Assembly (NCBI GenBank): GCA_000991135.1
Contig: LBST01000003.1
Span: 1-64,000, forward strand
Direction of reading: 5' to 3'
Source: Candidatus Roizmanbacteria bacterium GW2011_GWC1_37_12
Lineage (GTDB): Bacteria; Patescibacteriota; Microgenomatia; UBA1406; GWC2-37-13
Length of the DNA: 64,000 nucleotides
Both the position numbers and the translations under genes were made by a program. Within the stretch, counting starts at the first letter, position 1. The number at the start of each line of letters is the position of its first letter. Positions 6,362 through 55,016 of this stretch are shown here, piece by piece. Under the pieces are notes generated by a model, which was given only the letters and a program-made list of their open reading frames with translations, was not told the DNA's origin and made no database searches.

Positions 6362-8080
6362 ATGATTAAAAATAAAATTATTCAAAATTTAAAAACGGCT
6401 CTAAAAAAATCCGGCATTAAGGATGACTCCTTGATTGATCTTCAGCCACCAACCAATGCACAATTTGGTGATTACTCCACTTCAGTGGCCCTAAAGTTAA
6501 CAAAACTTTTCAAAAAAAATCCCATGGAAATTGCAGAAGAAATTAAGAAGAATTTTCCAAAGAGTGAATTTGTCGAAAAAATTGAGATTGTCAAACCAGG
6601 ATTTATAAATTTTTGGGTAAGTAACAATAATCTTCTCGACTTTGCTCAAAAAATAAACGAAGATAAATTCGAATTTCCGTCATTTCATCTAGGAAAAAAC
6701 AAAAAAATTATGGTTGAGTTTGCTCATCCAAATACTCATAAACTTTTTCATATCGGCCATTTGAGAAACATTTCTACCGGTGAATCAATCGTAAGAATTT
6801 TTGAAGCCGTCGGAAATAAGGTCATTCGAACAAACTATCAGGGTGATATCGGTTTACATATAGCCAAATGTTTGTATGGAATCCGTAATTCGCAATCCGT
6901 AATTAAAAAATTAAATAATTTACAGGAAAGGATTGAATTTATAGGTAAGATGTATACCGAGGGAACCAAAGCTTACGACAATCCAAAAGCTAAAGAGGAA
7001 ATCAACAAAATAAATAAAATGATTTATAATCAAGACCCGGAAATTCTCCCGCTTTGGCAGGAAACCAAGAAATGGAGCTTGGATTATTTTGACGAGGTTT
7101 ACAAACGGGTTTACAGTCATTTCGACCGTTTATATTTGGAAAGCGATGTGACAAAAAGAGGTCTGGAAATTTCCAAAGAAATATATAAAAAAGGGGTTCT
7201 TGAAAAAAGCCAGGGAGCGATCGTTTTTAACGGAAAAAAATACGGACTAGATATAAGAGTCTTTATCAACTCCCTTGGATTTCCCACCTATGAGGGAAAA
7301 GAGATGGGATTAGCAGAAAAAGAATTTTATGATTTTGGAGAACTAGATAAAAATATTCACGTCGTCACTCCAGAACAAACAAGTTTTTTTAAAATCACTT
7401 TTAAAGTCGAAGAGTTAATCAACGAAAAAAAATATAAAGGTAAGCAATATCATCTTATCTATGAATGGGTAAAACTTAAGGAAGGTAAAATGTCTTCCCG
7501 CGAAGGCAATATAATCGAGGCCAACTGGCTAATCGACCAAATAAAAACTAAAATCTTAGAAAGATTTAAATGCGATGAAAAAACTGCCGAAACCCTTGCT
7601 GTTGCGTCGGCTAAATATTCATTTCTAAAAAACAGTACGCAAACCATAATTCATTTTGATATCGACGAATCGATTGCTGTCGATGGAAATTCTGCGCCTT
7701 ATATCGTTTATACTTACGTCCGCTGCCAGTCGGTCCTCCGTCGTCATTCTGGCAAGGCCGAAGGCCGCGTCCAGAATCTAAACGACGATTCTGGAGTCGC
7801 TCCGCTCCCCAGAATGACAGAAAGTGAGTCTAATCTATTACGAAAACTTTATCAGTTTCCAGAAGTTGTTTTAAAATCCGCCGAACAATATTCGCCCAAC
7901 TTCATCGCCACTTATCTTTATGAGTTAGCGTCGCAATTCAATCTTTTCTATCAAAAAAATCCAATCCTCAAAGCCGAAAAAGAAACAAAGGAATTAAGAT
8001 TATTGATCACCCAAACAACGGCGAATGTTATAAAGAAAGGGCTGGAATTGCTGGGAATAAAGACGGTAGAGCGCATGTGA
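6362..8080 (+). CDS. argS: arginyl-tRNA synthetase (with in-frame repeat insertion)
   Basis: EFAHPNTHKLFHIGHLRN (HIGH), KEGKMSSREGN (KMSKS), NVIKKGLELLGIKTVERM C-terminus. Confidence 0.95.
   Translation: MIKNKIIQNLKTALKKSGIKDDSLIDLQPPTNAQFGDYSTSVALKLTKLFKKNPMEIAEEIKKNFPKSEFVEKIEIVKPGFINFWVSNNNLLDFAQKINEDKFEFPSFHLGKNKKIMVEFAHPNTHKLFHIGHLRNISTGESIVRIFEAVGNKVIRTNYQGDIGLHIAKCLYGIRNSQSVIKKLNNLQERIEFIGKMYTEGTKAYDNPKAKEEINKINKMIYNQDPEILPLWQETKKWSLDYFDEVYKRVYSHFDRLYLESDVTKRGLEISKEIYKKGVLEKSQGAIVFNGKKYGLDIRVFINSLGFPTYEGKEMGLAEKEFYDFGELDKNIHVVTPEQTSFFKITFKVEELINEKKYKGKQYHLIYEWVKLKEGKMSSREGNIIEANWLIDQIKTKILERFKCDEKTAETLAVASAKYSFLKNSTQTIIHFDIDESIAVDGNSAPYIVYTYVRCQSVLRRHSGKAEGRVQNLNDDSGVAPLPRMTESESNLLRKLYQFPEVVLKSAEQYSPNFIATYLYELASQFNLFYQKNPILKAEKETKELRLLITQTTANVIKKGLELLGIKTVERM
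7743..7818. repeat. in-frame palindromic element inside argS (GTCATTCTGG family)
   Basis: Outer arms GTCATTCTGG (7743-7752)/CCAGAATGAC (7809-7818); inner arms CCAGAATC (7771)/GATTCTGG (7787); related copy at 11689-11747. Confidence 0.85.
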
Positions 8081-8083
8081 AAA

Positions 8084-8192
8084 TTGACCTAATTAACCTA
8101 ATTTCTAATTAATCTAAATAATGACCAATTGTTCCCAATTGGGATTTGGATATTTTTTAGGTCAATTAGGTTAATTAGAAATTAGAAATTTT
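8084..8192. repeat. AT-rich imperfect inverted repeat, family B1 (TTGACCTAATTAACCTAATTTCTAATT)
   Basis: Left ttgacctaattaacctaatttctaatt, right aggtcaattaggttaattagaaattagaaatt; fills the argS-radA gap; similar copies at 12931-13057 and 39599-39707. Confidence 0.85.
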
Positions 8193-9488
8193 ATGGCGTT
8201 ATTTGTCTGTAAAAATTGCGGCTTCGGTTCAGCCTCATGGTATGGCAAATGTCCTGACTGTGGCAAATGGAATACTTTAACAGAACGACCCGACTTCGGC
8301 CCGCACAGCGGGCCTTCGGCGGGTAAAAAAGAATCCCTTAAAAAAATTTCCGTCACGCCTCTCAAGAAAATCAAAACCCAAGCAAAATCAAGAATTAAAA
8401 CAGGGCTTTTTGAATTTGACCGAGTGCTTGGAGGAGGTTTTGTTCCCGGGGAAGTCATTCTTCTAACAGGAGAGCCGGGTATCGGCAAATCAACTTTGAT
8501 CCTCCAATCTCTAAAAAATATCCGGACTCTTTATATCTCCGGCGAAGAATCAGGAGAACAAGTCAAAAACCGGGCGGATAGACTTGGTGTCGATCTAAAC
8601 CGATTTTTATTTTCAAGTGACCTTCAGGTCGAAGGGATAATCGAATCGGCAAGAGAGATGAAAGACGAAATCGACATCATCGTCATCGACTCTGTACAAA
8701 CAATCTACTCCAAAGAAATCGAAGGCGCCACTGCCAGTATCAGTCAGCTAAAAGAGGTAACAAAATTGCTGGTAAATTTTGCCAAAAGAAATAATGTTAC
8801 CATAATTTTAATAGGTCACATTACCAAAGAAGGTGAAATCGCCGGGCCAAAAAGCCTCGAGCACTTTGTCGACTGCGTCCTTAACTTTGAAGGAGAAAAG
8901 GTTTCTAATTACCGGTTGATTAGGGCTTCGAAAAATCGTTTCGGCGGTACCGATGAAATCGGCATCTTTGAAATGACAGGAAAAGGATTAAAGGAAATCA
9001 GCAACCCTCTGGTTTTCTTGGAGGAAAAAAAATCGCTTGAACCGGGAAAAGCCATCGTCGGTGTCACCGAAGGGCAAAGACCCCTTTTTTTTGAAATCCA
9101 AACTCTGGCCGTCCCTACGGTTTTACCGGTTCCAAGACGAGTCGTCAAAGGATTTGACTACAATAAAGTTTTACTTCTTCTGGCTGTTGTCAGAAAAAAT
9201 TTAAATCTAACACTCGATAATTTTGACATCTATGTCAACGTTGTCGGTGGCGTCTCGATAAAAAGCACCAGCGCGGATTTAGGATTAATAGCCGCTTTAA
9301 TTTCTTCCTTTAAAAACATTCCCCTTTCTCCGTCAACATTATTTATTGGCGAAGTCGGTTTATTAGGCGAGATAAGAAAAACTTATTTTGAAGAAAAAAT
9401 TATCTCTGAAGGAAAACGATTGGGGTTCAGAAAAATTTTCTCGAGTAAAAATTTAAACAGCGTTAAAGACCTAAAAAAAGTCATTTAG
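8193..9488 (+). CDS. radA: DNA repair protein RadA
   Basis: N-term zinc ribbon CKNCGF..CPDCGKW, Walker A GEPGIGKST, KNRFG motif, Lon-like C-terminal domain. Confidence 0.95.
   Translation: MALFVCKNCGFGSASWYGKCPDCGKWNTLTERPDFGPHSGPSAGKKESLKKISVTPLKKIKTQAKSRIKTGLFEFDRVLGGGFVPGEVILLTGEPGIGKSTLILQSLKNIRTLYISGEESGEQVKNRADRLGVDLNRFLFSSDLQVEGIIESAREMKDEIDIIVIDSVQTIYSKEIEGATASISQLKEVTKLLVNFAKRNNVTIILIGHITKEGEIAGPKSLEHFVDCVLNFEGEKVSNYRLIRASKNRFGGTDEIGIFEMTGKGLKEISNPLVFLEEKKSLEPGKAIVGVTEGQRPLFFEIQTLAVPTVLPVPRRVVKGFDYNKVLLLLAVVRKNLNLTLDNFDIYVNVVGGVSIKSTSADLGLIAALISSFKNIPLSPSTLFIGEVGLLGEIRKTYFEEKIISEGKRLGFRKIFSSKNLNSVKDLKKVI
8288..8324. repeat. in-frame palindromic element inside radA
   Basis: ACCCGACTTCGGCCCGCACAGCGGGCCTTCGGCGGGT encoding RPDFGPHSGPSAG in the linker after the zinc ribbon. 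Confidence 0.75.
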
Positions 9489-10113: not shown

Positions 10114-10677
10114 TTATACTCTCCCGGTATACTCGCCTGTTTCGGGGTTTACGGAAATAGTCTCGCCGACTTTGACAAAAAGCGGGACTAAGACAGTGGC
10201 GCCCGTCTCGACTTTAATGGCTTTTTTGGATCCGCCAGTCACCGTATCTCCTTTGACGGCATCTTGGGCCTCGACGACCTTAAGTCTGACACTCAAAGGC
10301 GGACGGATAGTAAGAGGTTTATCATCATAAAGGTAGACATATATTTTCTCACCTTCTTTAAAAAATTTATAAACGTCGCCGACGATGTTTAGAGGCAGGG
10401 AAAATTGATTATACGTCCTCTCGTCCATAAAATAGAGATTTTCATTATCATGATATAAATACTGCATCTCTATTGATTGGACGTCTAAAACTTCGACCTG
10501 CTCGTTTGACTTATAAGCGTATTCGATATTTTTTCCCGATACTAAATTTTTTATTCTCGCTTTCATCAGAGCCGATCCCTTGCCGGGCGAATAAAAATCA
10601 GCCTTTTGCACCTGCCAGACTTCTCCCTGATAATAAACGAATTCGCCTTTTTTTAAGTTTCCCGCATTAGTTCTCAT
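10114..10677 (-). CDS. efp: elongation factor P
   Basis: KOW-like N-term with SPGKGSALMKARIKNL modification loop; C-term VKVGETISVNPETGEYTGRV. Confidence 0.95.
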   Translation of the reverse strand: MRTNAGNLKKGEFVYYQGEVWQVQKADFYSPGKGSALMKARIKNLVSGKNIEYAYKSNEQVEVLDVQSIEMQYLYHDNENLYFMDERTYNQFSLPLNIVGDVYKFFKEGEKIYVYLYDDKPLTIRPPLSVRLKVVEAQDAVKGDTVTGGSKKAIKVETGATVLVPLFVKVGETISVNPETGEYTGRV

Positions 10678-11675
10678 TTGATGTTAATTAATTTTAACTT
10701 ATCAATTGATTTTACATTAGTTAAGGTCATCACTAATCTCTCAAACCCTATCCCCGCTCCTGTGCAATTCGGAAGACCATATTTTAATGCTTCAATGAAT
10801 CCTTTGTCAATCGAATGACTGACCATTTGTGAAAAAAACCTTTTTTCCTGCTCTTTATAATCATTGAGTTCTGTGCAAAAACCGCCGACTTCCAGTCCGT
10901 CGATATAAAATTCGCAACGCTCCGCGGTCTTTCTGTCTTTGGATAACTTTGCTAAAGAAGCTAACTGCTTGGGGTAGTCATACAGTAATGTCGCTCTTCC
11001 ATTTTTACCTAATTTTGGCTCGATCTCTGCTGCCAATATCTGTGAAAATAAATCTTCATATGTGGCACCTGTTATTTTATATCCTTTATTTTTGATTTTT
11101 TTAATAAATAATTTTTCATCGAATAATTCTTTTTTAGATATTTCGGCAAACTTTTCAAAAGCTTGTCCCACCGAATACTTTTCCCACCTGTCAAATTTTA
11201 ACTTTTGACTTGAACTTTTGCCTTTTAATTTTTGCCTTTTGACTTTACTGTCTATAAAACAAAGTAACTCCAGTACTTCATCAGCCATTTCCAAATAATT
11301 AACTCCTAGTTTATAAAACTCCAACATCGTAAATTCAGGTTGGTGCCAGCTCGAATTCGGTTCACTGTTTCTGAAACTCTTGCCTAAGTAATAACAATTA
11401 CCTACTCCTGCCATTAACAGTCTTTTTAAAAATAATTCCGGCGAAGGAGTCAGATAAAGCTTTTCCCTGCCTGCCGGCAGGCAGGTTTTTTCCCAAGATA
11501 ATCTAAATTCTGTCTCAAAAACTTCCAGATATGATTCAGGGATAAGTGCAGGTGACAAAACCGGTAAATCAACTTTAAGATATCCCTTCCTCTTAAAAAA
11601 CTCATACACTGCCTCTTCAACTTTAAGATATACTCTATAGTTTTCTAAATTTTCTAATGAAGTTCTAATTTTCAT
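10674..11675 (-). CDS. epmA: EF-P--lysine ligase-like class II aaRS (EpmA/GenX/PoxA type)
   Basis: Class II LysRS catalytic core without anticodon-binding domain; starts MKIRTSLENLENYRVYLKVEEAVYEFF; EALKYGLPNCTGAGIGFERLVM motif; overlaps efp. The ORF-track start (11888) is probably too far upstream. Confidence 0.75.
   Translation of the reverse strand: MKIRTSLENLENYRVYLKVEEAVYEFFKRKGYLKVDLPVLSPALIPESYLEVFETEFRLSWEKTCLPAGREKLYLTPSPELFLKRLLMAGVGNCYYLGKSFRNSEPNSSWHQPEFTMLEFYKLGVNYLEMADEVLELLCFIDSKVKRQKLKGKSSSQKLKFDRWEKYSVGQAFEKFAEISKKELFDEKLFIKKIKNKGYKITGATYEDLFSQILAAEIEPKLGKNGRATLLYDYPKQLASLAKLSKDRKTAERCEFYIDGLEVGGFCTELNDYKEQEKRFFSQMVSHSIDKGFIEALKYGLPNCTGAGIGFERLVMTLTNVKSIDKLKLINIK
11466..11485. 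repeat. in-frame 20-bp perfect palindrome inside the epmA-like gene
   Basis: CCTGCCTGCCGGCAGGCAGG, encoding CLPAGR between EKT and EKLYLTPSPE. Confidence 0.85.
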
Positions 11676-11688
11676 AATATCAACTAAC

Positions 11689-11747
11689 GTCATTCTGGCA
11701 AGTGAACAAAGTGAACGCGTCCCAGAATCGTAGTTTAATTCTACGAT
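11689..11747. repeat. palindromic element, GTCATTCTGG family, intergenic copy
   Basis: gtcattctggcaagtgaacaaagtgaacgcgtcccagaatcgtagtttaattctacgat; shares GTCATTCTGGCAAG...GCGTCC(C)AGAATC with the argS element. Confidence 0.8.
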
Positions 11748-13057: not shown

Positions 13058-14965
13058 TTAGTTAACAACCTCTCCTTCTTCAACTTTTCCCTTGTCCGCC
13101 GAAGCCTTGGCGGAGGCGGATTTTTTATCTTCAGATTTTTCTTCTGTTTTTTGTTCTCCACCTTCTGGTTTTTGATTCTGGTACATCGCCTGGCCAATTT
13201 TGGCTAACTCGTCAGACAGATCCTTTGTCTTTGATTCGATTTCCTCTTTTGTTCCTTTTCCGAGAGTTTCCTTTAACTCTTTAATCTTTTTTTCGACATT
13301 TTCCTTGACGTCTTTTGGTGCTTTATCTCCGGCATCTTTTAAGGACTTCTCTGCCACATAAATCATATTGTCTGCCTTATTTCTTACCTCGATTTTTTCT
13401 TTTTCTTCCTTGTCTTTCTCGGCATTTTTCTCTGCTTCTTCTTTCATCTTTTCAATTTCCTCCTTATTCAAACCAGTTGAGCCGGTGATTTTTATTCCTT
13501 GTGATTTGCCAGTGGCTTTGTCTTTGGCGTTAACCGACAAAATACCAGAAGCATCGATGTCAAAAGTCACCTCGATTTGAGGCACGCCTCGTGGCGCCGG
13601 CGGAATGCCGTCGAGAATAAATCGGCCCAATGATTTATTGTCTCGAGCCATCGGCCGCTCTCCCTGCAAAATGTGAATCTCTACCTGAGTCTGATTGTCT
13701 CCAGCTGTCGAGAACGTTTCTGTTTTGGCAGTTGGAATTGTGGTGTTTCTATTAATTAGGGGCGTCAATACGCCGCCTAAAGTTTCCACGCCCAAAGTCA
13801 AAGGCGTGACGTCGAGTAAAACGACGTCCTTGGTCTCGCCGGTTAAAACTCCAGCTTGTACCGCCGCCCCGACCGCCACCACTTCATCCGGATTAACAGA
13901 TTTATTTGGTTCTTTTCCAAAAAATTTCTTGACTTCGGAAACAACCAAAGGCATCCTTGTCATGCCCCCGACCAAAACAATTTCGTCAATTTTAGATACG
14001 TCAACTTTTGCGTCCTTGAGACATTTTTTCACTGGTTCAAATGATTTTTCAACTAATCCTCCCACCAAAGACTCTAGTTTGGCTCGAGTCAGTTTTGTGA
14101 CAAAGTGCAAGGGCTGGCCGTCTTTGACGGTGACAAACGGCAGGTTGACATCGGCCTGCATCGATGAGGACAGCTCGATCTTGGCTTTCTCCGCGGCATC
14201 GCGTAGGCGCTGCAAGGCTTGAGCGTCGTGACGAAGATCGATCCCATTGTCCTTTTTAAACTCATCGGCAAAGTAGTCTAGAATAACTTTATCAAAATCA
14301 TCACCTCCCAGATGGGTATCGCCGTTGGTCGCCTTAACCTGGAAGACTCCTTCTCCCAATTCCAAAATCGTGATATCAAAAGTCCCGCCGCCCAAGTCAT
14401 AGACGGCAATCGTGTGGGCGTGTTTTTTGTCTAAACCATAAGCGAGGGAGGCTGCTGTCGGTTCATTAATGATTCTTACTACTTCCAATCCGGCAATTTC
14501 ACCTGCTTGTTTGGTCGCTTGTCTTTGGGCGTCGTCAAAATAAGCCGGGACTGTAATAACAGCTTTTTCAACTTTTTCACCCAAGTGGGCTTCGGCATCA
14601 GCCTTAATTTTTTGTAAAATCATCGCGGAAATTTCCTGGGGAGTATAGGTCTTTCCTTCAATCTCGACATCAGCCATATTGTCCCTTCCTTCTTTTATCT
14701 TATAAGGAAGCCATTTCATATCGTATTTAACCGACTCGTCGGAAAATCTTCTTCCCATCAATCTTTTAATAGAGAAAATCGTGTTTTTCGGATTAACTAC
14801 CGTTTGTCTTTTTGCCACGTCACCAACGATCCTTTTCACAGGATCAACTACTGACGGAATGACATTCCTTCCTTCAGCTGAATAGATAACTTTGGGTTTT
14901 CCACCCTCCATAACTGCAACACATGAGTTGGTTGTGCCTAGATCGATCCCGATTATTTTTGCCAT
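13058..14965 (-). CDS. dnaK: molecular chaperone DnaK
   Basis: [33 protein letters not shown], full-length HSP70. Confidence 0.97.
13095..13120. repeat. in-frame palindromic element in the dnaK C-terminal tail
   Basis: TCCGCCGAAGCCTTGGCGGAGGCGGA encoding [10 protein letters not shown]; same family as 47004-47029 and 58698-58724. Confidence 0.8.
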
Positions 14966-18962: not shown

Positions 18963-19036
18963 TTCTAGAGCTTTATCACAGGCCGATCGGCAACCTCCGA
19001 GGTTGAGAACGACTCGTCAAAACAATCTAAATACCT

Positions 19037-22360: not shown

Positions 22361-23161
22361 TTACGAACTCTTTTCCTTTTTTCTCTTTGCTAGCCACACC
22401 AGAATTGGCGTTGCTACAAATGGCGAGGAATAAGTACCGGTAATTGTACCAATAAGAAGAGTAATAATAAAGAATCTGATTGTCGATCCTCCAAGAAGAA
22501 CTAAGCTCAAAAGCATAAAGACAATCGTCATTGAATTATTGACAGACCTGACCATGGTCTCGGTTAGCGCCCGATTGGCAAAATGCTCGATGTCTTCTTT
22601 ACCTTCCGTCTGTAAGTACTCCCTGATTTTGTCGAAAATGACGATCGTGTCGTGGACTGAAAATGACATCGTCGTCAAGACTGCGGTAACAAACATAGTG
22701 TCGACTTCGGCGCCAAAAAAACGAGAAAGAAGAGAATAACTCCCGATAACAACCAAAAAATCGTGGATCATCGCTAAAATGGCGGCCATAGCATACTTGA
22801 ATCCTTTAAAGGCAAGACTCATATAAATCAGAATTCCTGCAACCGCCAACAGTGAAGCTATCACTGTTTTATTTATAGTTTCTTTTCCTAAAGTTGCCCC
22901 AACTGTTTCCAAACGGAGAACTGTCACTTTCGCCTTCATTTTTTTCTCGAGTGTTGATATTAATTTATCCTGCTCTTTCTGATTAAGAGTTTTTTCTCTT
23001 AAATTATAAGTCTTATCTCCTATTCTATATTCCAAATATGTTCCGCCGACAAAATCAATAGAATATCGATAACCCCATTTGACTATGGAAAATAAACCGG
23101 CGCTAATGACCAGAAAAGAAATTAAAAAATATATTAATCTATATTTTAAAAAGTTAAACAT
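22361..23161 (-). CDS. secF: protein translocase subunit SecF
   Basis: YSIDFVGGTYLEYRI; SFSVHDTIVIFDKIRE. Confidence 0.93.
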   Translation of the reverse strand: MFNFLKYRLIYFLISFLVISAGLFSIVKWGYRYSIDFVGGTYLEYRIGDKTYNLREKTLNQKEQDKLISTLEKKMKAKVTVLRLETVGATLGKETINKTVIASLLAVAGILIYMSLAFKGFKYAMAAILAMIHDFLVVIGSYSLLSRFFGAEVDTMFVTAVLTTMSFSVHDTIVIFDKIREYLQTEGKEDIEHFANRALTETMVRSVNNSMTIVFMLLSLVLLGGSTIRFFIITLLIGTITGTYSSPFVATPILVWLAKRKKEKSS

Positions 23162-23262
23162 ATTTTTAAGTCAAAATTCAAAAATCAAAAGTCAAAAATT
23201 CAAGTAAAAAGTTAAAAGTAATTGAATAAAAACTTTTTAATTTTGACTTTAACTTTTGAATT
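23162..23262. repeat. AT-rich inverted repeat, family B2 (CAAAAGTCAAAAATTCAAGTAAAAAGTTAAAAGT)
   Basis: Fills the secD-secF gap; similar copies at 32859-32977, 49137-49250, 54900-55016. Confidence 0.8.
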
Positions 23263-24582
23263 CTAACTTTTGACTTTTAACTTATAAAAAGCATTAATCA
23301 ATCTTTTAGTAATTACTACTCCGGTAAAAAGGCTTGTTGCCACTCCGATTGCCAAAGTCAAAGCAAATCCCCTCACCATGCCAAACTGCGGTAAAAACTC
23401 CCAGTTTAAAGGATTAAACAAAATAAAAGCCACAGTCAAAGTCGTCACATTGGCGTCTTTAATAGCATCGATCGCCCGGCCAAATCCCAATCTAACAGCG
23501 ATATCAAACTCTCTCCCCTTTCTCAACTCTTCTTTTATCCTCTCAAAAATTAAAATGTTGGAATCAACTGCCATGCCAATCGAAAGAATAAATCCGGCAA
23601 CCCCGGGAAGAGTCAGCACAACCGGAATGGTCCTGAAAATCGCCATCGAGATCAACCCGTAGATAATCAGCGCCAATGAGGCAATCAAGCCCAATTTTCC
23701 GTAATAAAATATCATAAACAGCAAAACCGCTGTTAAACCAATTAGTCCGGCATAGACGCTTTTTTTCACTTCAGAAGCGCCAAGAGTCGGCCCGATATTT
23801 TTTTGTTCGACGAGTTTTATAGACAAAGGTAATGCTCCGGAATTGATGGCGATTGCCAGTTTTTTTGCTTCGTCAACGGTAAAGTTTCCTGTAATGACAG
23901 CGCTGCCATCCAGAATCGCCTGTTGGACTGTCGGCGCCGAAACAAGAAAATTGTCAACGACTATGGCTAAAGGTTTACCAATATTTCTTTTTGTGATGTC
24001 GCCAAAAAGCTTGGAGCCCTCGCTATTAAAAGACAGGCCGACTTGAGGTTTACCATCTTGCTGGTTAAAGTCAACATTGGCTTTTTTGATGTGTTTTCCC
24101 GTCAACCCTGTTTCGACAAGTACTGGTGTCGGGCTGGCGACTTTCTCGTCAAGAATTTTTTCTTCCCTGAAAGTCAGCTGGGCTGTTCTGCCTATAAGAG
24201 CAATCGCTTCGTCTACTTTTTCAACTCCAGGTAAATCGACACCAATTCTATAGTTACTTCCCGACTTTAAATTTTGCACCGTCGGTTCGGAAACGCCAAA
24301 AAAATTAACTCTCTTTTCTATGATGTCCCGAGCTGAAGATAGAGCATCTTGCAGATCTTCTGATTTGACTTTTTTAGTATCAGCTTCAAACACCAAATGG
24401 CTGCCGCCTTTAAGGTCAAGTCCGAAACTCGTCTTGAAATCTTTTCTTATTTTTAGTCCAAAAAAACTAAAGTTCAATGAAGAAGTAATCTTATATTTAC
24501 TCCTGATAATTTCTGGCAAATCGATCCAGATAATGGCGGCAATTATAAAAAGAAGAAAAACAATCTTTAAAAACTTCGTCAT
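23263..24582 (-). CDS. secD: protein translocase subunit SecD
   Basis: GLDLKGGSHLVFEAD; SIGMAVDSNILIFERIKEELR. Confidence 0.94.
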   Translation of the reverse strand: MTKFLKIVFLLFIIAAIIWIDLPEIIRSKYKITSSLNFSFFGLKIRKDFKTSFGLDLKGGSHLVFEADTKKVKSEDLQDALSSARDIIEKRVNFFGVSEPTVQNLKSGSNYRIGVDLPGVEKVDEAIALIGRTAQLTFREEKILDEKVASPTPVLVETGLTGKHIKKANVDFNQQDGKPQVGLSFNSEGSKLFGDITKRNIGKPLAIVVDNFLVSAPTVQQAILDGSAVITGNFTVDEAKKLAIAINSGALPLSIKLVEQKNIGPTLGASEVKKSVYAGLIGLTAVLLFMIFYYGKLGLIASLALIIYGLISMAIFRTIPVVLTLPGVAGFILSIGMAVDSNILIFERIKEELRKGREFDIAVRLGFGRAIDAIKDANVTTLTVAFILFNPLNWEFLPQFGMVRGFALTLAIGVATSLFTGVVITKRLINAFYKLKVKS

Positions 24583-26843: not shown

Positions 26844-27110
26844 ATGCCCAAAAAGACTAAAAAAGAAAAAATTTTGGCGGCGTATAGAAAAAAACTCCGT
26901 TTACTCGAACAGTCAAACATTAAATCTCCCCCCTCGTTAACCTCCGAGGTTAACGTAAGGACGACCAACACTCGAACCTCGGAGGTTAAACAAACAGAAA
27001 AAATCGCTCCTCCAAAATACTTTTTTCTTGATTTAAGAAAAAGTCTGATTTTGGTATCAATTATCATTGCTGTTGAAATTGGCTTATATTTTGCTAAGCT
27101 GATTAAGTGA
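26844..27110 (+). CDS. small membrane protein carrying an in-frame repeat
   Basis: MPKKTKKEKILAAYRKKLRLLEQ..., C-term TM; contains element 26939-26987. Start chosen within ORF 26805-27110. Confidence 0.55.
   Translation: MPKKTKKEKILAAYRKKLRLLEQSNIKSPPSLTSEVNVRTTNTRTSEVKQTEKIAPPKYFFLDLRKSLILVSIIIAVEIGLYFAKLIK
26939..26987. repeat. in-frame ACCTCCGAGGTT element
   Basis: AACCTCCGAGGTT...AACCTCGGAGGTT, encodes TSEVNVRTTNTRTSEVK. Confidence 0.85.
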
Positions 27111-31865: not shown

Positions 31866-32858
31866 ATGACGATTATTAAAACTGAATTTGCTTTGGCCTT
31901 AAATCAAGTGGCGACCGAACGAGGCATCTCGCCAGATGACGTTATCGCATCGATTGAAGCTGCTGTTATTGCCGCCTATAAAAGAGAATATCCTGAATCA
32001 GTTGATGAAGAAATCGCTGCTAAAATTAATAAAGACAGCGGTGAGACCAAAATTGTCAAAGACGGCAAAGATATAACTCCTCCTGGATTTGGAAGAATAG
32101 CCGCTCAAACCGCCAAACAGGTCATTTTACAAAAAATCAGAGAAGTCGAGAAAAAAACCGTCGCCAGCCACTATAAATCTCAAGTAGGCACGATTATTAA
32201 GGGTCGGGTAATCCGATATGATGGATACAATGCCTATCTTGACATTGGCCGAGCTGAAGCTCTTCTTCCGAGAGAAGAACAGATCAGATCCGAACAATAC
32301 CAAGTCAATGACAGTTTAATCATCTATTTAAAAGAAATTGCCGACGACAAATTTGGCAATCCGAGGATAATTGTTTCTCGATCCGATTCTCGCTTGATTG
32401 AAGAACTGTTCAAGCGCGAAGTTCCGGAAATTGCCAATAATACGGTCGAGATAAAAAAGGTAGCCCGCGCTCCTGGCGAAAGAGCTAAGATCGCTGTTTT
32501 TTCATCCCAAGGCGGAGTTGACCCGGTCGGCGCTTGCGTCGGTCAGAAGGGCGTCCGCGTCCAGACGGTCACTGACGAGCTTGGAGGGACAGAAAAGATC
32601 GATATTATTCAATGGAACCAAGACGAAAAATTATTTCTGATGGCAGCCTTGTCACCGGCTAAAATTCAAGCCGTCGAAATTGACCAAGCCGCAAAAAGAG
32701 CTAAAGTAACAGTAGATGAAAAAGAAGCTCCCCTGGCAATCGGAAAAGGGGGCATCAATGTCAATCTAGCTTCACAACTAACTGAATTTGAGATAGACAT
32801 CATTCAAACTAAACCACAAGAAGAAAAAATAACTATTGAAAATAAATCTGTTAATTAA
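31866..32858 (+). CDS. nusA: transcription termination/antitermination factor NusA (short form)
   Basis: N-terminal domain, S1, KH domains: DPVGACVGQKGVRVQTVTDELGGTEKIDIIQW. Confidence 0.93.
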   Translation: MTIIKTEFALALNQVATERGISPDDVIASIEAAVIAAYKREYPESVDEEIAAKINKDSGETKIVKDGKDITPPGFGRIAAQTAKQVILQKIREVEKKTVASHYKSQVGTIIKGRVIRYDGYNAYLDIGRAEALLPREEQIRSEQYQVNDSLIIYLKEIADDKFGNPRIIVSRSDSRLIEELFKREVPEIANNTVEIKKVARAPGERAKIAVFSSQGGVDPVGACVGQKGVRVQTVTDELGGTEKIDIIQWNQDEKLFLMAALSPAKIQAVEIDQAAKRAKVTVDEKEAPLAIGKGGINVNLASQLTEFEIDIIQTKPQEEKITIENKSVN

Positions 32859-32977
32859 GTTAAAATTCAAAAAGCAAAAGTCAAAAATTCAAGTCAAAAT
32901 TAAAAAGTTTTAATACTTTTGACTTTTTACTTGTACTTTTGACTTCTAACTTTTAACTTTTGAATTATAATTAATCC
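32859..32977. repeat. AT-rich inverted repeat, family B2
   Basis: Fills the nusA-infB gap; arms gttaaaattcaaaaagcaaaagtcaaaaattcaag / acttgtacttttgacttctaacttttaacttttgaatta. Confidence 0.85.
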
Positions 32978-34432
32978 ATGAATCAAACTCGTCCTCCCAT
33001 CGTCGCAATTTTAGGCCATGTCGATCATGGCAAAACCACTCTATTAGACTATATTAGAAAAACCAATCTCACTGAAAAAGAACACGGCGGCATTACTCAA
33101 AAAATCGGCGCCTATGAAATTACTACTAGTTTTAAAGACTATAAAACCAATAAAATCACTTTTATCGACACCCCTGGCCACGAAGCTTTCTCTTTATTGA
33201 GAGCTAGGGGGGCTAACGTAGCCGATATCGCCCTGCTTCTTATCGACGGAAAAGACTCGGTCATGCCCCAAACCGTCGAATCCATTTCCCATATTAAAAC
33301 GGCAAAAATACCTTTTATCGTCGTCATTAATAAGATCGACCTAGCGGAAACCGATCCGGAAAAAGTAAAGATTGACCTTTTAAAACACGAGGTATTAGTC
33401 GAAGGCAAAGGCGGTCATGTCCCAGTTGCCCTCGTCTCCGCCAAAACCGGCAAAGGCATAAAAGAACTACTAGAAACAATCTTGTTAATTTCCGCGGACT
33501 TAAATCTGACTTATAATCCGGAAAATCCAGTTCAGGCCTATATAATTGAAACTAAAAAAGACCGCCGAGGCATAGTTGTTTCAACCGTGATAAAAGACGG
33601 AAAAATAAAAACCGGCGACGTCCTTTATGCCCAGAACAAAAAAATCAAAGTACGATCAATCTATAACGATCGAGGTCAAACAATATCAGAAGCTGTCCCT
33701 TCAACTCCGTTTGAACTTTTGGGTTTTGACGAACTACCAGAGGTTGGCAGAACCATTCAAAATCAACCAACCTCTGACCAAAAACCAATGGTCGGAAATA
33801 AAAAAATAAAAAATGAGTTTACTCTTGAGAGCATTCTTGATACTTCAAAAAAGGAAAAAAGACTCTCTATTGTCATCAAAACCGATTCTCAAGGAAGCTT
33901 GGAGGCGATCCAAGAATCGATCAAAAATAATAAGGATATCGAGGTCATCCTCCAAGCCGTAGGCGAAATCAACAAGTCAGATATTTTCTTGGCTAAAGCA
34001 ACTAAATCGATCATTATCGGTTTTAACGTAAATCCCTCGCCAGAAGCCAAAGATTTGGCCAAACAAGAAAAAATTATCATTAAAACCTATCAGATTATAT
34101 ATGAACTGCTTGACGAAATCACCGAGGTTGCCAGTCTGATTAAGGAAAAAGAGGAGAAAGAAAAAAACCTCAAGGGCGAAGCTAAAATACTAGCCAACTT
34201 CACTATCGAGAATGAGGTCGTCTTTGGAGTCAAGGTGGTTAAAGGCAAGATTAATCTAAATGATCCTCTCGTTTGTCACCGGGAAAATAAACTTATAGGA
34301 AAAACTAAACTGGTATCTTTAAGGGTTCGCGCCAAAACTGTTTCCGAGGTAAAAAAGGGTCAGGAAGCGGGAATGATGTTTTATCCGGCTCTTGACATTA
34401 GGATAGGTGATGTGGTAAAATCTATCCTATAG
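32978..34432 (+). CDS. infB: translation initiation factor IF-2 (short form)
   Basis: ILGHVDHGKTTLLDYIRKTN, TFIDTPGHEAF, VVINKIDL. Confidence 0.95.
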   Translation: MNQTRPPIVAILGHVDHGKTTLLDYIRKTNLTEKEHGGITQKIGAYEITTSFKDYKTNKITFIDTPGHEAFSLLRARGANVADIALLLIDGKDSVMPQTVESISHIKTAKIPFIVVINKIDLAETDPEKVKIDLLKHEVLVEGKGGHVPVALVSAKTGKGIKELLETILLISADLNLTYNPENPVQAYIIETKKDRRGIVVSTVIKDGKIKTGDVLYAQNKKIKVRSIYNDRGQTISEAVPSTPFELLGFDELPEVGRTIQNQPTSDQKPMVGNKKIKNEFTLESILDTSKKEKRLSIVIKTDSQGSLEAIQESIKNNKDIEVILQAVGEINKSDIFLAKATKSIIIGFNVNPSPEAKDLAKQEKIIIKTYQIIYELLDEITEVASLIKEKEEKEKNLKGEAKILANFTIENEVVFGVKVVKGKINLNDPLVCHRENKLIGKTKLVSLRVRAKTVSEVKKGQEAGMMFYPALDIRIGDVVKSIL

Positions 34433-46060: not shown

Positions 46061-47377
46061 TTATACCAAAAATTCCCTTTTCCGAAGATACAGGTGGTAT
46101 TTTTTGGCGAAACGATGCGACTCGTCCCTGATGAGTCTTATAATATTAAAGGCTTTATTTGTTTGGGGAAATCTGATCGTCGAATAACCATCGGTTCCAA
46201 TTACCAGTCTGTCAGGATTTTTAGCGATCCCCAAAACAGGGATTTTTTGATTGATTTCTTTTAGCGTTTCCATGACAACCCTTACTTGTGGTCGACCACC
46301 GTCAACGATGATCAAATTAGGAAGCTGCCAGGCGTTTTTAAAACGGCGCCGAATAACTTCTTTTAATCGATCGAAGTCGGATTTTAACCCTTGATCCTTG
46401 ATCCGAAAACGTCGATATTCGTCTTTGTCGATAACTCCTTTTGTTAAAACGACCATTGAACCGACCTGATTTGACTTTTGCAAATTGCTGATGTCATATG
46501 CTTCAATTCTATCTAATCTCTCCAGCGTTGGGAAATATTTTTTTATTTCTTTTAAGAAAATCGCCAGATGATTTTCCTTCTGTAGAGACAATTCATGAAT
46601 TGTCTCTACGTTTGATGTCGGATGGTTAATCAGTCTTTCTAACCTAAAAATTTTATTCCTGATAAAAATTGCTTCTTCATATTTTTTTTCTTTTGTCAAA
46701 GACTTTAGCTGTTTATAGAGATTGTTTAGAATGTCTGTCACTCCTCCATGTAAGACCTTAACCACGCGCCTTATATTATTGCGGTATATTCTTTTTAGGA
46801 CAGGTCGCGACCTGTCCCTACAATTGTTGATAAAATTTGGGCAAGGTTGACAAAGGCCAATCTTTGAATAAAAACAGGAAGATCTAGAAAGATTTTTTTC
46901 TGTGCAAAAAGGGACAATGTGTCTAATGTCGTCCAGCAAAGATTCAGCGACTTTGGTTGAAGAAAAAGGTCCAAAATATAGGGATTGACCATCATTTTCC
47001 TTGCCCGACGAAGCCTTGGCGAAGTCGGGTTTGCGAGATAATAATACCTTTGGATAATCCTCTCTCGTCGTTATTTTAATATAAAGATAGCTCTTGCCGT
47101 CTTTCCAGACGACATTATACTTCGGGTGAAATTTTTTAATCAGCTGCGATTCAAGAATCAATGCCTTAAATTCGTTTTCAACGACAACGGCCTCGATCCG
47201 ATCTGAACTCTCAACAATTAAAGATTCTTTTCTGTCAAGCTTCGCATTTTCCAAATGAGATCTCACTCTGGCCTTGATATTGACTGACTTGCCGATATAG
47301 AGAACTTTGCTGTCTTTCTTAAAAAAGTAGACGCCTATATTCGAAGGAAGATTATCAATCTCATTTTTTTCTATCAT
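46061..47377 (-). CDS. uvrC: excinuclease ABC subunit C (with three in-frame palindromes)
   Basis: GIY-YIG N-term (GVYFFKKDSKVLYIGKSVNIKARVRSHL), UVR motif, VDGGRPQ C-terminal nuclease. Confidence 0.93.
   Translation of the reverse strand: MIEKNEIDNLPSNIGVYFFKKDSKVLYIGKSVNIKARVRSHLENAKLDRKESLIVESSDRIEAVVVENEFKALILESQLIKKFHPKYNVVWKDGKSYLYIKITTREDYPKVLLSRKPDFAKASSGKENDGQSLYFGPFSSTKVAESLLDDIRHIVPFCTEKNLSRSSCFYSKIGLCQPCPNFINNCRDRSRPVLKRIYRNNIRRVVKVLHGGVTDILNNLYKQLKSLTKEKKYEEAIFIRNKIFRLERLINHPTSNVETIHELSLQKENHLAIFLKEIKKYFPTLERLDRIEAYDISNLQKSNQVGSMVVLTKGVIDKDEYRRFRIKDQGLKSDFDRLKEVIRRRFKNAWQLPNLIIVDGGRPQVRVVMETLKEINQKIPVLGIAKNPDRLVIGTDGYSTIRFPQTNKAFNIIRLIRDESHRFAKKYHLYLRKREFLV
46582..46609. repeat. 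in-frame 28-bp perfect palindrome in uvrC
   Basis: GTAGAGACAATTCATGAATTGTCTCTAC (VETIHELSL). Confidence 0.92.
46798..46817. repeat. in-frame 20-bp perfect palindrome in uvrC
   Basis: GGACAGGTCGCGACCTGTCC (RDRSRPV); same family as 46582-46609 by GTAGRGACA...TGTCYCTAC flanks. Confidence 0.88.
47004..47029. repeat. in-frame palindrome in uvrC (AKASSG family)
   Basis: CCCGACGAAGCCTTGGCGAAGTCGGG (PDFAKASSG). Confidence 0.88.
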
Positions 47378-49227
47378 CTTTTCTTTTTTTTCAAAATTAG
47401 TTTTCCAAGAGAAAAAATGGCAAAAATAACTACCAACGACGATGCACCTATTGCGACTACAAAATAAGTAAAAGGAATGACTTCCGTGGTCTCCTCTAAT
47501 AATTTGTTGTTGAGGACAAAGATCTTGATCTTTCCTTGATTTTTTTTGTTTTTACTTGACGACGAATATTTAAAATTAATTTCTTTTTCTTCATATGGCG
47601 CCAACGAAGCCACGATGGTCTTTTGTCGGTCAATTTTTATATTTTCTCCTTTTATTTCAACCGGAATCCCCAAAAGATAAACATTGCTCTTATTTTTAAT
47701 AGAAAATTTTCCCTGGTAGTCTTTGTTGTCAGAAATCCTAGATGATAAATTGAAATTTTCAATGCCAACGGATTTTTTTTCTATAGGAGTTTCTGTCGTC
47801 GCTTTAATAGAAATGTCTTTAGAATCGCCTGTTTTATACATACCTGCCGGTAACGGATAGTCAGATTTTCTTCCGTGAATGGCAAGGACAATGTGGTTTA
47901 AATCAAACGAGGTAAAATAATCGATCCCTGATGTATTTTCCCAGGTCGGATCAATCGGCACCCAAATATTTTTTTCTATATCATAAAATTCTGGCCAAGC
48001 ATGAAGGACATCGGAAACCAAAGACAGCGGCTGTAATTGAGGATCGTAAGAAAAACCATAACCTTCAATCTCGCGGGCCATGATTCCTTTTTCTCTTGAA
48101 ATACCGACAAAAAGATCGGTAAACTCCATGCAGACGGCTTGATCAGGTTTTGATAAAACCGCTTCTGCTCCAAGCCTGGCGTTATCCGAATCAATTTTAT
48201 CGTAGTTATATTTTAATTTTCCAACGGTAAAATCATAGATCTCCTTGGCACTATTAAGCCCATTAATTTTTTCCAGGCTGTTGATCGTCCAATACTTTTG
48301 TTGACTCAATAAATAATTTTTTTGAGAAGAAATCTTATTTTCTACAACACCCAACATCTCTTCTCTTGGTCGTGAAGAAACTTGAATCAGTCCTTTGAAT
48401 ACGACTGTTTTTGATTCGAGGGATTTTAATAAATATTTACCAAGATAGTTGCCGTCTTCGTCTTGATATACATTTACCGGCTCCGGGCTGATCGATTCGA
48501 TGAATATTCTTTGATAAAGGCTATCTGGAGGAAAAGCCACTTCGGTGATTACAGGAAAAATTTCGTTATTTTTTAAATGAAAGTTCAAAATCGCTTTATA
48601 AATCTGGTTTTCACCGAAAACGGCATAAATAGTTTTTGTCTGTGGGTTATCCCAGACAATCTGATTTCCACTAACTAAATCGGGTTTTGGTTTAGAAATC
48701 GAGATTTTTTTGTCTGTCCCCGTTGGAAGCGTCACAACAACTTTGTAATTGTCTTCTTTATTTTCAATCACCGGTATCGCCACCTCCCAGACATTGCCGT
48801 TGACTTTAAAAAGATTGATTTGGTCAAAACTGAGGTAAAAATTGTTCACCGAATCTCGACCGATATTGGGATTAGAAAATTCCATTTCGACTTTAGTATT
48901 ATCTGCATCAGCAATAACCTTTGGTGAAATTTCGCCGTGGTCATCGGAGACTTTGAGATTACTTATGGCGAACGATTTGGGAAAACTTATGGCAAATTTA
49001 TTGACGTAGACATCTCCTCTTAAGTTGGTAATTCTTATGTTAAACCCGACATTCGAACTTAAATTTTCTCTAAATTTGGAAAGGTTGTATTCGACTTGAT
49101 AGTCAGTTTTGAAATCAGCAGCACCGACTTCAGAAGGAGTCAAAAGTAAAAAGGCAAAAGTCAAAAATACAAGTAAAAAGTTAAAAGTTTTAAAAAAAAA
49201 TTTTAATTTTGACTTTAACTTTTGCAT
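47374..49227 (-). CDS. transglutaminase-like domain membrane protein
   Basis: Signal peptide, CMEFTDLFVGISREKGI...HAWPEFYD...WVPIDPTW transglutaminase core, C-term TM. Confidence 0.82.
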   Translation of the reverse strand: MQKLKSKLKFFFKTFNFLLVFLTFAFLLLTPSEVGAADFKTDYQVEYNLSKFRENLSSNVGFNIRITNLRGDVYVNKFAISFPKSFAISNLKVSDDHGEISPKVIADADNTKVEMEFSNPNIGRDSVNNFYLSFDQINLFKVNGNVWEVAIPVIENKEDNYKVVVTLPTGTDKKISISKPKPDLVSGNQIVWDNPQTKTIYAVFGENQIYKAILNFHLKNNEIFPVITEVAFPPDSLYQRIFIESISPEPVNVYQDEDGNYLGKYLLKSLESKTVVFKGLIQVSSRPREEMLGVVENKISSQKNYLLSQQKYWTINSLEKINGLNSAKEIYDFTVGKLKYNYDKIDSDNARLGAEAVLSKPDQAVCMEFTDLFVGISREKGIMAREIEGYGFSYDPQLQPLSLVSDVLHAWPEFYDIEKNIWVPIDPTWENTSGIDYFTSFDLNHIVLAIHGRKSDYPLPAGMYKTGDSKDISIKATTETPIEKKSVGIENFNLSSRISDNKDYQGKFSIKNKSNVYLLGIPVEIKGENIKIDRQKTIVASLAPYEEKEINFKYSSSSKNKKNQGKIKIFVLNNKLLEETTEVIPFTYFVVAIGASSLVVIFAIFSLGKLILKKKKR

Positions 49228-49250
49228 TTTGACTTCTAACTTTTAACTTT
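49137..49250. repeat. AT-rich inverted repeat, family B2, overlapping coding ends
   Basis: agtcaaaagtaaaaaggcaaaagtcaaaaatacaagtaaaaagttaaaagttttaaaa ... ttttgactttaacttttgcattttgacttctaacttttaactttt. Confidence 0.8.
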
Positions 49251-52115
49251 TCTTAAGTATTGCCCTGTATATGATTCCTTCACCTTCATTATACCCTCAA
49301 TTTCTCCCTGATAAATCACCTTGCCGCCTTTATCTCCTCCCTCCGGTCCAAGATCGATAATGTACTGGCAGTTTTTTATGACGTCTAAATTGTGTTCGAT
49401 AACAATAACCGTATTGCCTCGATTGACCAATTCCTGAAGCGTATGCAATAATTTTTCAATGTCATAAAAATGAAGGCCAGTCGTCGGCTCGTCGAGAATA
49501 TAGACTGCCCTGCCGGTTTCCCGACGAGATAATTCGTTGACCAATTTTAATCTCTGGGCTTCTCCCCCTGATAGAGTCGGCGCCGGCTGACCCAATTCCA
49601 GATAACCGAGTCCTGTTTTTTTCAAGAAATCCAATTTGGAAAAAATTTTAAAATGGTTTGTAAAAAAATCGGCTGCTTCATCAACCGTCATTTTCAGGAT
49701 CTCATAAATGCTTTTGCCTTTATATTCAATTTCTAGCGTCTCTTTGTTATAACGCCTGCCTTCGCAGACATCACAGGTCACGTAGACGTCTGACAAAAAC
49801 TGCATCTCGATTTTTAAGAGGCCAGCTCCTTGGCATTTTTCACAGCGGCCACCCTTAATATTAAAAGAAAACCGTCCTTTTTTAAATCCGGACATTCGCG
49901 CGTCAACAGTGGTCGCAAAAATTTCCCTGATTTCGTCAAAAAAACCGACATAGGTCGATGGATTTGATCGAGGAGTACGGCCGATCGGTGACTGATCAAC
50001 TAAGTAAACTTTATCAATGTATTGATGGCCTTCAAGTTTTTCGAATTCGCCGATTTTTTGATTGTAATATCCATCGAGATAATACTTTAAGGCTGGATAG
50101 ATCGTTTCTGTTATCAAGGTCGATTTGCCAGATCCGGAAACGCCGGTAACCGCGATTAAATTGCCCAAGGGCAACCTGATGGTGATATCCTTTAGATTGT
50201 GTTCCTTGGCGCCTCTTATGATTATTTCTCCGTTATTTTTATTTAATTTTTTTTGCCTCAATTCTATCTTTTTTCTGCCCGACAAAAATTGTCCCGTTAA
50301 AGACGAAGAATTTTTTTTAATTTCCGACAACGTTCCGCTGAAAACTACTTTTCCTCCATGTTTGCCGGCATTAGGACCCAATTCTATCAAGTAGTCTCCT
50401 GACTCGATTGTCTCCCAATCGTGTTCAACGACAATCAAGCTATTACCCAAATCTCTTAACTTTTTCAAAGTGGTTATTAAAGAAAAAACATCTTTAGGGT
50501 GAAGGCCGATCGACGGCTCATCCAAAACGTACAAAACCCCGGTCAAACCAGTCCCAATCTGGGAAGCCAAACGAATTCTCTGCAACTCTCCTCCAGATAA
50601 AGTCTTGGCGGTTCGACCGACTGACAGATAAGACAATCCGACATTGTTTAAAAAATTAAGACGAGAGATTATTTCTTTAACAATTGGTTTGGCTATTTGT
50701 TTTTCGTATAAAGATAGAGTCGGCGGCAAAACTGTTTGAAAATAATTGGTCAAAAAATCAATGGAATAAGTGGATAATTGAGCGATATTTTTTTTGTCAA
50801 TCGTAACAGAAAGTATCTCTGGTTTTAATTTGTCTCCCCTACACTTAGGGCAAGTTTCTTCTTTCATATACTTTTGAATCTCAAAACTACTATAGTCGCC
50901 TGTTGATTCAAAGTATCTTCGTTCCAATTCAGAAATAATTCCGGAAAATTTTTCGTAAATAACAGTCGATTTTCCAAATCTATTAGTCCCTGGGACTCGA
51001 TAGACCTTATCAGTTCCGTAAAGTAAAATGTTTATTTGTCTATTTGAATATTTGTTTATTTGTAGATTTAAGTCTATCCCTTCTTCTTCTGCCATTTGTT
51101 TGATCAATCTCATATACCAAGTTTCATGAAAAAAGAATCTATTGAATGGTAAAATACCCCCTTCTAGAATGCTTAAATTTTTATTTAAAATCAGATTTTT
51201 ATCGACGGCGAAAATCGTCCCAATGCCCTTGCACTGTTCACAAGCGCCAAGAGGCGAATTGAAAGAAAACATCCTCGGCTCCAATTCTGATAAAGAAATA
51301 TTATCTATCGGACAAGAAAATTTTTCCGAATAAAGATGACTTTCTTTTCCAAAATCAACGACTACTAAACCATCAGAAAGATTTAGCGATTGTTCAATTG
51401 TTGTTGTCAACCTCGATCTAAAATTGGACATGAAGACTTTATCCCTTGATTGTTTTAAGTTAAAAGAAAAACTGTCGACAATAACCTCAATGTCGTGTTT
51501 ATTCGTCTTTATTAGATTGATTTCTTCACTGGTATTTTTTTCTTTTCCATCAACTCTAATCTTAGAAAAACCTTTGGCTGAAAGATTGTCAAAAAGATCT
51601 TTAAACTCTCCCTTTTTTGACCGTACCACAGGTGAAAGAATAACGAATTGGTGAGGTTTAACCTTGTCTCCCTGAACCTTGTCCTGAACTTGTTTTAGGA
51701 TCTGATCAATAATTTCGTCGACTGACATTTTACTAATTTCTCGACCGCATTTAGGACAGTGAGGATGGCCGACGCGAGCAAAAAGAAGACGAAAATAGTC
51801 ATATATTTCCGTGATTGTCCCGACAGTTGATCGGGGGTTGTGAGAAACGGTTTTTTGGTCGATAGAAATCGACGGCGACAGACCCTCAATAAGATCGACG
51901 TCTGGTTTATCCATAATCCCTAAAAATTGACGGGCATAAGCCGAAAGCGATTCAACGTAGCGCCTTTGTCCCTCGGCGTAGATCGTGTCAAAAGCCAAAG
52001 ACGATTTCCCCGAACCCGATATGCCGGTAATTATTACTAATTTATTCTTTGGGATATCTAGATCAATATTTTTAAGATTGTGCTGACGAGCACCCTTTAT
52101 ACGAATGTAATCCAT
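49236..52115 (-). CDS. uvrA: excinuclease ABC subunit A
   Basis: [37 protein letters not shown], zinc fingers, two ABC signatures. Confidence 0.96.
51671..51702. repeat. probable in-frame element in uvrA (KQVQDKVQG)
   Basis: TCCTGAACTTGTTTTAGGA imperfect palindrome, followed on the minus strand by a direct GTTCAGG repeat; encodes [12 protein letters not shown]. Confidence 0.5.
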
Positions 52116-54281: not shown

Positions 54282-54950
54282 ATGGAAGTCTTGAACTACC
54301 TTGTTGATTTTATCATTCATATCGATGTTCATCTCGGCCAATTAATCTCAACCTACGGACTGCTTACTTACTTAATCTTATTTCTTATCATCTTTATGGA
54401 AACCGGTTTGGTTTTTACCCCTTTTTTGCCAGGTGACTCTCTTCTTTTTGCAACCGGCGCCTTTGCCGCTTTAAATTATTTAAATGTTTGGTTGGTTTTT
54501 CTTCTATTATCAACCGCGGCCATACTCGGAGATACGGTTAATTACTGGATCGGTCACTTTTTTGGAAAAAAAATTGTTGCCCATCCTAAAATTCCGATTG
54601 ACGAAACTCACATCATGGAAACTCAAAAATTTTTCCATACTCACGGAGGTAAAACGATTATATTGGCAAGGTTTATGCCTTTCATCCGTACCTTTGCTCC
54701 ATTTGTAGCAGGCATCAGTCGTATGAAATATGATCGATTCCTTTTTTATAATGTCATCGGCGGTTTACTTTGGGTGGCGATCGGGGTTTTTGCCGGTTAT
54801 TTTTTCGGTAACTTAAAATTTATCAGGGAAAACTTTTCTCTAGTTATTATAGGAATAATAATAATCTCTCTAATACCAATTGCTGTCGAAATAATTAGAA
54901 AAAAGTTAAAAGGCAAAAGTCAAGATTCAAAAGTTAAAGTAAAAAGTTAA
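54282..54950 (+). CDS. DedA family membrane protein
   Basis: FMETGLVFTPFLPGDSLLFATGAFA; ARFMPFIRTFAPFVAGISRMKY. Confidence 0.9.
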   Translation: MEVLNYLVDFIIHIDVHLGQLISTYGLLTYLILFLIIFMETGLVFTPFLPGDSLLFATGAFAALNYLNVWLVFLLLSTAAILGDTVNYWIGHFFGKKIVAHPKIPIDETHIMETQKFFHTHGGKTIILARFMPFIRTFAPFVAGISRMKYDRFLFYNVIGGLLWVAIGVFAGYFFGNLKFIRENFSLVIIGIIIISLIPIAVEIIRKKLKGKSQDSKVKVKS

Positions 54951-55016
54951 AAGTTTTAATACTTTTTAATTTTTATTTGTATTTTTGACTTTTGATTTTT
55001 GAATTTTGACTTAATA
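54900..55016. repeat. AT-rich inverted repeat, family B2
   Basis: aaaaagttaaaaggcaaaagtcaagattcaaaagttaaagtaaaaagttaaaag ... tttgacttttgatttttgaattttgactt; extends into the DedA C-terminus. Confidence 0.8.

Follow-up and report, generated by a model that had tools for sequence, protein, structure and literature searches.

A head-to-head dimer of CGTC/TGTC-tagged palindromic units read in frame within the arginyl-tRNA synthetase gene of a Candidatus Roizmanbacteria genome

In the window (the whole stretch of DNA that was analysed, 64,000 nucleotides), the gene of an arginyl-tRNA synthetase (ArgRS) contains a palindromic element made of two units. The features of this locus are the following:

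6362..8080, + strand: argS, arginyl-tRNA synthetase, 572 aa, host gene of the element; Pfam Arg_tRNA_synt_N, tRNA-synt_1d and DALR_1.
7743..7818, no strand assigned: whole element, 76 bp; two REP-like units arranged as a head-to-head dimer; in-frame reading RHSGKAEGRVQNLNDDSGVAPLPRMT, residues 461-486.
7743..7777, + strand: unit A, GT-CATTCTGG-CAAG...CGCGT-CCAGAAT; YGTC tag (CGTC from 7742); inner hairpin GGCC/GGCC.
7778..7787, + strand: spacer CTAAACGACG; the spacer type of the family is CTNNACAACG.
7788..7818, - strand: unit B, in opposite orientation, GT-CATTCTGG-GGAGCGGAGCGACT-CCAGAAT.

An earlier note on this DNA, made from the letters alone, had described a 76-bp nested palindrome lying in frame within argS, and we found the sequence at 7743-7818 to be as it claimed: GTCATTCTGG...CCAGAATC / GATTCTGG...CCAGAATGAC, with the outer arms GTCATTCTGG and CCAGAATGAC mutually complementary too. 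Translation of ORF 6362-8080 gives R461-T486, RHSGKAEGRVQNLNDDSGVAPLPRMT, as the insert peptide. The strand folds well beyond its shuffles (-36.7 vs -22.1 kcal/mol; z -4.45; 0/200), and zero matches to CATTCTGG-N4-30-CCAGAATS were found in 100 shuffles of the window. A chance or artefactual origin of the palindrome is ruled out by these shuffles, together with the genome-wide copies and the orthologs described below.

The host enzyme has intact HIGH and KMSK-type motifs and no second full-length ArgRS match was found in the window's own genome (G000), so that it is presumably functional, as far as can be judged from its sequence. Its predicted fold is that of an ArgRS, and its named relatives belong to Candidatus Roizmanbacteria, Microgenomates group, Patescibacteria. 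The CATTCTGG element is absent from 34 of 35 ArgRS orthologs of the Roizmanbacteria family, the closest of these being at 76-78% identity. Alignment with relatives thus bears out that the insert is lineage-specific, since orthologs at 70-78% identity lack the insert residues. However, the 26 extra residues announced by the earlier note are an overstatement, and as a net gain the figure is wrong: the loop that separates SVL[KRN] from LLRK has 31 residues here vs 19-29 in 35 family relatives, which indicates that the element for the most part took the place of the native loop. In an AlphaFold2 model of the enzyme (41 sequences; mean pLDDT 91.1), values fell below 50 only at residues 466-472 and 474-480. 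These residues form the core of the insert and lie between helices 445-465 and 487-497. The insert is therefore predicted to be a disordered, flexible surface loop.

The one exception among the orthologs belongs to a more distant relative, G006 (L109), where one unit of this family stands at the same codon and the loop has 23 residues. In an ArgRS tree built without the loop, whose deep support is weak, G006 stands apart from the window's lineage with insert-free lineages between them. Independent insertions in G006 and G000 are therefore likely, though not proven from these sequences, and shared descent is disfavoured by the intervening insert-free lineages, with the same reservation on tree support. 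The loops of other relatives contain other palindromes. The sister sequence L096 (G009) has two, TGTCACCC...GGGTGACA and ATCATGGTGAGCTCGACGAACCATGA, and the loop peptide SVIPSKVEES of L128 resembles GTCATTCC...GGAATCT, the DNA being deduced here from the peptide.

We searched the window's own genome (994,505 bp, 18 contigs) with the pattern CATTCTGG-N4-34-CCAGAAT and found 41 units at 24 places, well beyond the copy at 11689 that the earlier note had named; the reversed-pattern control gave 0 matches in the same 994,505 bp. A rigid 37-base pattern of the element had no matches, because the inner parts of the units vary. The unit scheme of the family is (Y)GTC-ATTCTGG-[variable inner hairpin]-CCAGAAT-C. 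In G000, GT precedes 41/41 units (CGT 26, TGT 12) and C directly follows 40/41, the next base being T, G, C or A. Over all fetched loci, C or T stands ahead of GTC at 69 of 74 dimer ends. The inner parts fall into the types GGAG...CGACT, CAAG...CGCGT, TAAG...CGCAT, CACC...ATTGT and short CTTGT, and over 125 distinct inner sequences the longest inner stem has a mean of 4.0 vs 3.0 in shuffles. Units occur singly, in a few cases tail to tail, and most commonly head to head with a spacer of ~10 nt (for example CTAACAACG); the fetched loci contained 37 complete head-to-head dimers.

The genomes compared are metagenome assemblies, one per species, and gene calls are open frames. Among them the distribution of the family is patchy: units were present in 9 of 38 near relatives, with 0 to 43 copies each, and 28 of the 192 genomes sampled from the class contained a stricter form of the unit, some of them with 40-65 units. 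The phage sequences searched gave no match to the family, and a search of Rfam matched no family, its sole hit being an implausible sub-threshold snoRNA.

A second place of the family lies within the window, near a neighbouring synthetase gene:

10674..11675, - strand: gene of a LysRS-like class II synthetase; 404-aa ORF with Pfam tRNA-synt_2 over residues 80-397.
11689..11729, + strand: single unit GTCATTCTGGCAAGTGAACAAAGTGAACGCGTCCCAGAATC, outside the stretch of the neighbouring gene that is likely to be coding.
11729..11747, + strand: small hairpin CGTAG-TTTAATT-CTACG, adjoining that unit.

The earlier note had seen at 11689-11747 a truncated relative between genes. The copy is real and lies upstream of the likely LysRS-like start, but it is a monomer next to a separate small hairpin and not a truncated dimer. 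The true start of the LysRS-like gene is likely the ATG at 11675, a choice of start made by inference, which leaves the 11689 copy upstream. The gene is probably EpmA-like, since it adjoins an EF-P-like ORF (10114-10677) and no N-terminal domain was seen. The palindrome CCTGCCTGCCGGCAGGCAGG at window positions 11467-11486 is read in frame in the LysRS-like ORF; in a different genome, G187, it recurs as the inner hairpin of a CATTCTGG unit, indicating that palindrome families nest in each other.

In G000, 19 of the 24 places are interior to an ORF (150 aa or longer, with 20 or more residues to either side of the place). The 11689 copy was excluded from the intragenic count, given the probable start of the LysRS-like gene at 11675, which leaves 18/24. 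Each of these 18 copies keeps the frame of its gene and contains no stop, and no copy was seen to break the frame of a conserved gene. The genes with an insert are argS, tsaD (two inserts) and those of a P-type ATPase, an AsnB-like asparagine synthase, thymidylate kinase, prepilin peptidase, a DUF2207 membrane protein, a cytidylyltransferase-DUF359 protein, prephenate dehydrogenase-dehydratase, a Wzy-type ligase, a DUF2298 protein and several membrane proteins. One Pfam domain spans the element in ArgS, TsaD, the P-type ATPase, pilD, DUF2207, PDT and DUF2298; in TsaD, 335 residues are covered by a 263-position profile. Most intragenic dimers are read in the frame that gives RHSG...RMT or ...SQND, which makes a hydrophilic peptide, and ~44% of the frames through such dimers are stop-free. 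The intragenic share of 75% exceeds the 0.35 expected at most under neutrality (p=8e-5), a bound calculated with simple assumptions: random insertion with every in-frame insertion tolerated, one third of insertions in frame, 44% open frames and an ORF-based coding fraction. This share differs strongly by species, being 7/30 in G024 (same family), 10/17 in G209 and 4/4 in G100; for 13 genomes taken together, it is 66 interior places out of 136.

We also located strong hairpins (each arm 9 bp or longer) in 36 ArgRS orthologs and observed that they lie mostly at residues 79-95 and 460-490; the 460-490 loop has a strong palindrome in 5 of the 36, of which four are perfect and reach this arm length and one, in G006, is imperfect. 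In 18 P-type ATPases nearly all strong hairpins are found in three loops, around 323, 402 and 460. Their families differ: the window's own genome has CATTCTGG, and relatives have TGTAGGGGCG..., GGTCTGACC..., GAAGACTGTCTTC... and others. Unrelated palindromes are likewise concentrated in two loops of TsaD. These loop windows were all defined after the hits were seen, so that nominal p-values for this clustering should not be read literally. Simple AT-rich repeats also occupy the loops. It is conceivable, and we put it forward tentatively, that a few surface loops in essential proteins, namely ArgRS 461-490 and loops of TsaD and the P-type ATPase, act in Roizmanbacteria and in the class as exchange sites, where unrelated mobile palindromes repeatedly land and replace the prior loop sequence, so that the loops would turn over by insertion rather than by point mutation at roughly constant length. 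The finding of different palindromes in the same loops of many species makes it a testable question how far small mobile DNA drives the evolution of protein loops.

The window contains several other repeats. AT-rich AAAGTCAAAA / TTTTGACTTT arrays lie at 11190-11257, 23161-23295, 32854-32978, 49138-49261 and 54890-55024, and repeats of this kind also fill P-type ATPase loops in G004 and G011 and the ArgRS loop of a distant relative, L157. A GC-rich palindromic stretch, CCCGACTTCGGCCCGCACAGCGGGCCTTCGGCGGG, at 8283-8325 is in frame in a radA-like ORF (8193-9488) and is possibly another family of protein-coding palindrome. Repeats of the CCGCCGAAGCCTTGGCGGAGGCGGA type are present at 13081-13123, 46990-47032 and 58685-58727, one copy being in frame near the C-terminus of DnaK. 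Finally, a long intergenic repeat, TTGACCTAATTAACCTAATTTCTAATT ... AGGTCAATTAGGTTAATTAGAAATTAG, palindromic over ~110 bp, occurs in near-identical form at 8079-8193, directly after argS, and at 39594-39706.

Taken together, the argS element is in all likelihood a non-autonomous REP-type mobile palindrome, a head-to-head dimer of CGTC/TGTC-tagged units, which was inserted in this lineage into a loop of ArgRS, displaced most of the native loop and is translated as a flexible surface loop. The insertion would have taken place between two helices of the anticodon-binding (DALR) domain, at the expense of most of the native loop. The element would then be transcribed and, as its open frame suggests, translated, adding a flexible loop at the surface of the enzyme. 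Its movement probably proceeds through single-stranded DNA and in trans, with an enzyme encoded elsewhere. We infer this mode from the absence of direct repeats, from the absence of CATTCTGG units at 40 Y1 loci and from the same missing transposase link in CGTC-tagged REPs of other phyla. Selection would purge insertions that break the frame or fall in structured parts and keep in-frame, stop-free ones in tolerant loops. We propose that the element persists in ArgRS because it has a stop-free frame and nearly any sequence will do in the loop as long as it is hydrophilic, and not because the enzyme needs it.

The mobilising enzyme could be one of the genome's own Y1 (IS200/RAYT-type) transposases, which would make the element a classical REPIN; we consider this sub-case of the preferred explanation possible but rather doubtful. 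G000 has six Y1 genes, and target-site duplications are missing, as Y1 transposition predicts: no direct repeats of 2-9 bp above shuffles were detected at the 37 complete dimers. In addition, Y1 genes are present in 9/9 relatives with the element vs 19/29 without it, a weak co-occurrence (p=0.04). However, 0 of 40 Y1 loci (132,658 bp) contain a CATTCTGG unit, and the hairpins of the Y1 genes themselves, of the CCTCCGAGG, CACCC...GGGTG and GGACTGTCC types, lack the ATTCTGG-family stem. A Y1 gene at G000:C6:52737 with GTC-tagged hairpins on both sides was considered as a lead to the mobiliser and rejected, the hairpins of its relatives having other stem ends and no Y1 locus holding CATTCTGG.

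Other hairpins of the genome lie close to Y1 genes. The Y1 gene L320 (G000:C6:52542-53204) is flanked by CGTCACCC...GGGTGACG and TGTCACCC...GGGTGAC, and a hairpin with a core like that flanking L320 is also found in the ArgRS loop of G009. Repeats with the core AACCTCCGAGGTT, at window positions 18984-19010, 26933-26993, 37031-37093 and 37472-37528, are probably linked to Y1 transposases, since they match hairpins flanking Y1 (IS200-like) genes at C1:21447 and C10:17007, with a similar one at C12:32800.

Alternatively, the argS palindrome could be kept for a role at the RNA level, its hairpin slowing ribosomes at a domain boundary or protecting the message, in which case any hairpin would do. 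The strong folding of the strand and the recurrence of unrelated palindromes at the same loop in other species agree with such a role, but we judge it improbable, as only 5 of 36 orthologs have a strong palindrome at this loop, the same hairpins stand in unrelated genes and between genes, and simple AT-rich repeats fill these loops too. It is less probable still, and quite unlikely, that a cut-and-paste (DDE) transposase moves the element as a MITE: the element is indeed short and multi-copy, with terminal inverted repeats and no coding capacity of its own, but the absence of direct repeats around the complete dimers disfavours such an enzyme, and single units also stand alone. The proposal that the element is an intervening sequence, bypassed by ribosomes or removed from the RNA so that the 26 residues would be missing from the protein, has a precedent in hairpin-rich coding inserts that are bypassed, the mitochondrial byp elements, but is very hard to credit when 18/18 intragenic copies are in frame and stop-free with only 44% of frames open, which a bypassed insert would not need, and when no copy was seen that breaks the frame of a conserved gene.

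We then compared the preferred reading, a translated REP-type mobile palindrome, with known systems. MITEs are likewise small and non-autonomous with inverted repeats, but the present element is without target-site duplication. REPINs consist of two inverted REP units that form one long hairpin, are non-autonomous and are associated with RAYT transposases (PMC3116915). The argS element shares the two inverted units, the long hairpin and the lack of autonomy; unlike REPINs, it has no GTAG tag and no adjacent RAYT, no Y1 gene is flanked by its units, and its copies are often within genes rather than extragenic. G000 is thus a genome in which copies of the REP type, 'extragenic' by name, mostly sit inside genes.

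The Rickettsia palindromic elements (RPEs), first reported as ~150 bp long, are palindromes in frame in unrelated conserved genes, where the fold of the protein is expected to accommodate them (PMC3733652, PMC10969869). The resemblance to RPEs suggested by the earlier note holds at the functional level: the present element is multi-copy, inserted in frame in many unrelated conserved genes (18/24 places), lineage-specific and located in a surface loop. Descent from RPEs is not supported by this comparison, which was made on published descriptions. The host is Candidatus Roizmanbacteria and not Rickettsia, the element has 76 bp, and its architecture is that of the wider superfamily of CGTC-tagged REPs. 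In this sense, protein-coding mobile palindromes, best known from Rickettsia, are extended to Patescibacteria.

A 2013 survey described CGTC-tagged REPs as having a CGTC or TGTC tag and forming mostly head-to-head heterodimers, with a stem of 8 or 9 bp starting A-T, T-A, a loop of 4-5 nt and a short unpaired tail, mostly CCA (PMC3733652). Some copies are inside ORFs and encode 20-30 residues, tRNA synthetases being among the genes hit; RPE-4 and RPE-6 of Rickettsia are counted within the group; no link to transposase genes was found; and five phyla were reported, Patescibacteria not among them (PMC3733652). The family described here shares with them the terminal CGTC/TGTC tag, AT at the first two stem positions, the predominance of head-to-head dimers, copies within ORFs and, as far as the 40 Y1 loci show, the lack of a link to transposase genes. 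It differs in its stem of 7 bp (ATTCTGG/CCAGAAT) vs 8-9, which places the element outside families CGTC-1 to 4, in the long loop with its own variable hairpin of most units vs 4-5 nt (only the CTTGT type has 5 nt), in a tail of C plus variable bases vs CCA, in its host phylum, Patescibacteria, and in having three quarters of its copies intragenic in this genome. A second testable question is which enzyme moves CGTC-tagged repeats, for which the 2013 survey found no transposase link (PMC3733652). Full-text literature searches, of incomplete coverage, returned no earlier report of such elements in Patescibacteria. From sequence comparison, our best reading is that the element is of a kind already known and would represent a new family of the CGTC-tagged REP type, in a new phylum and unusually intragenic.
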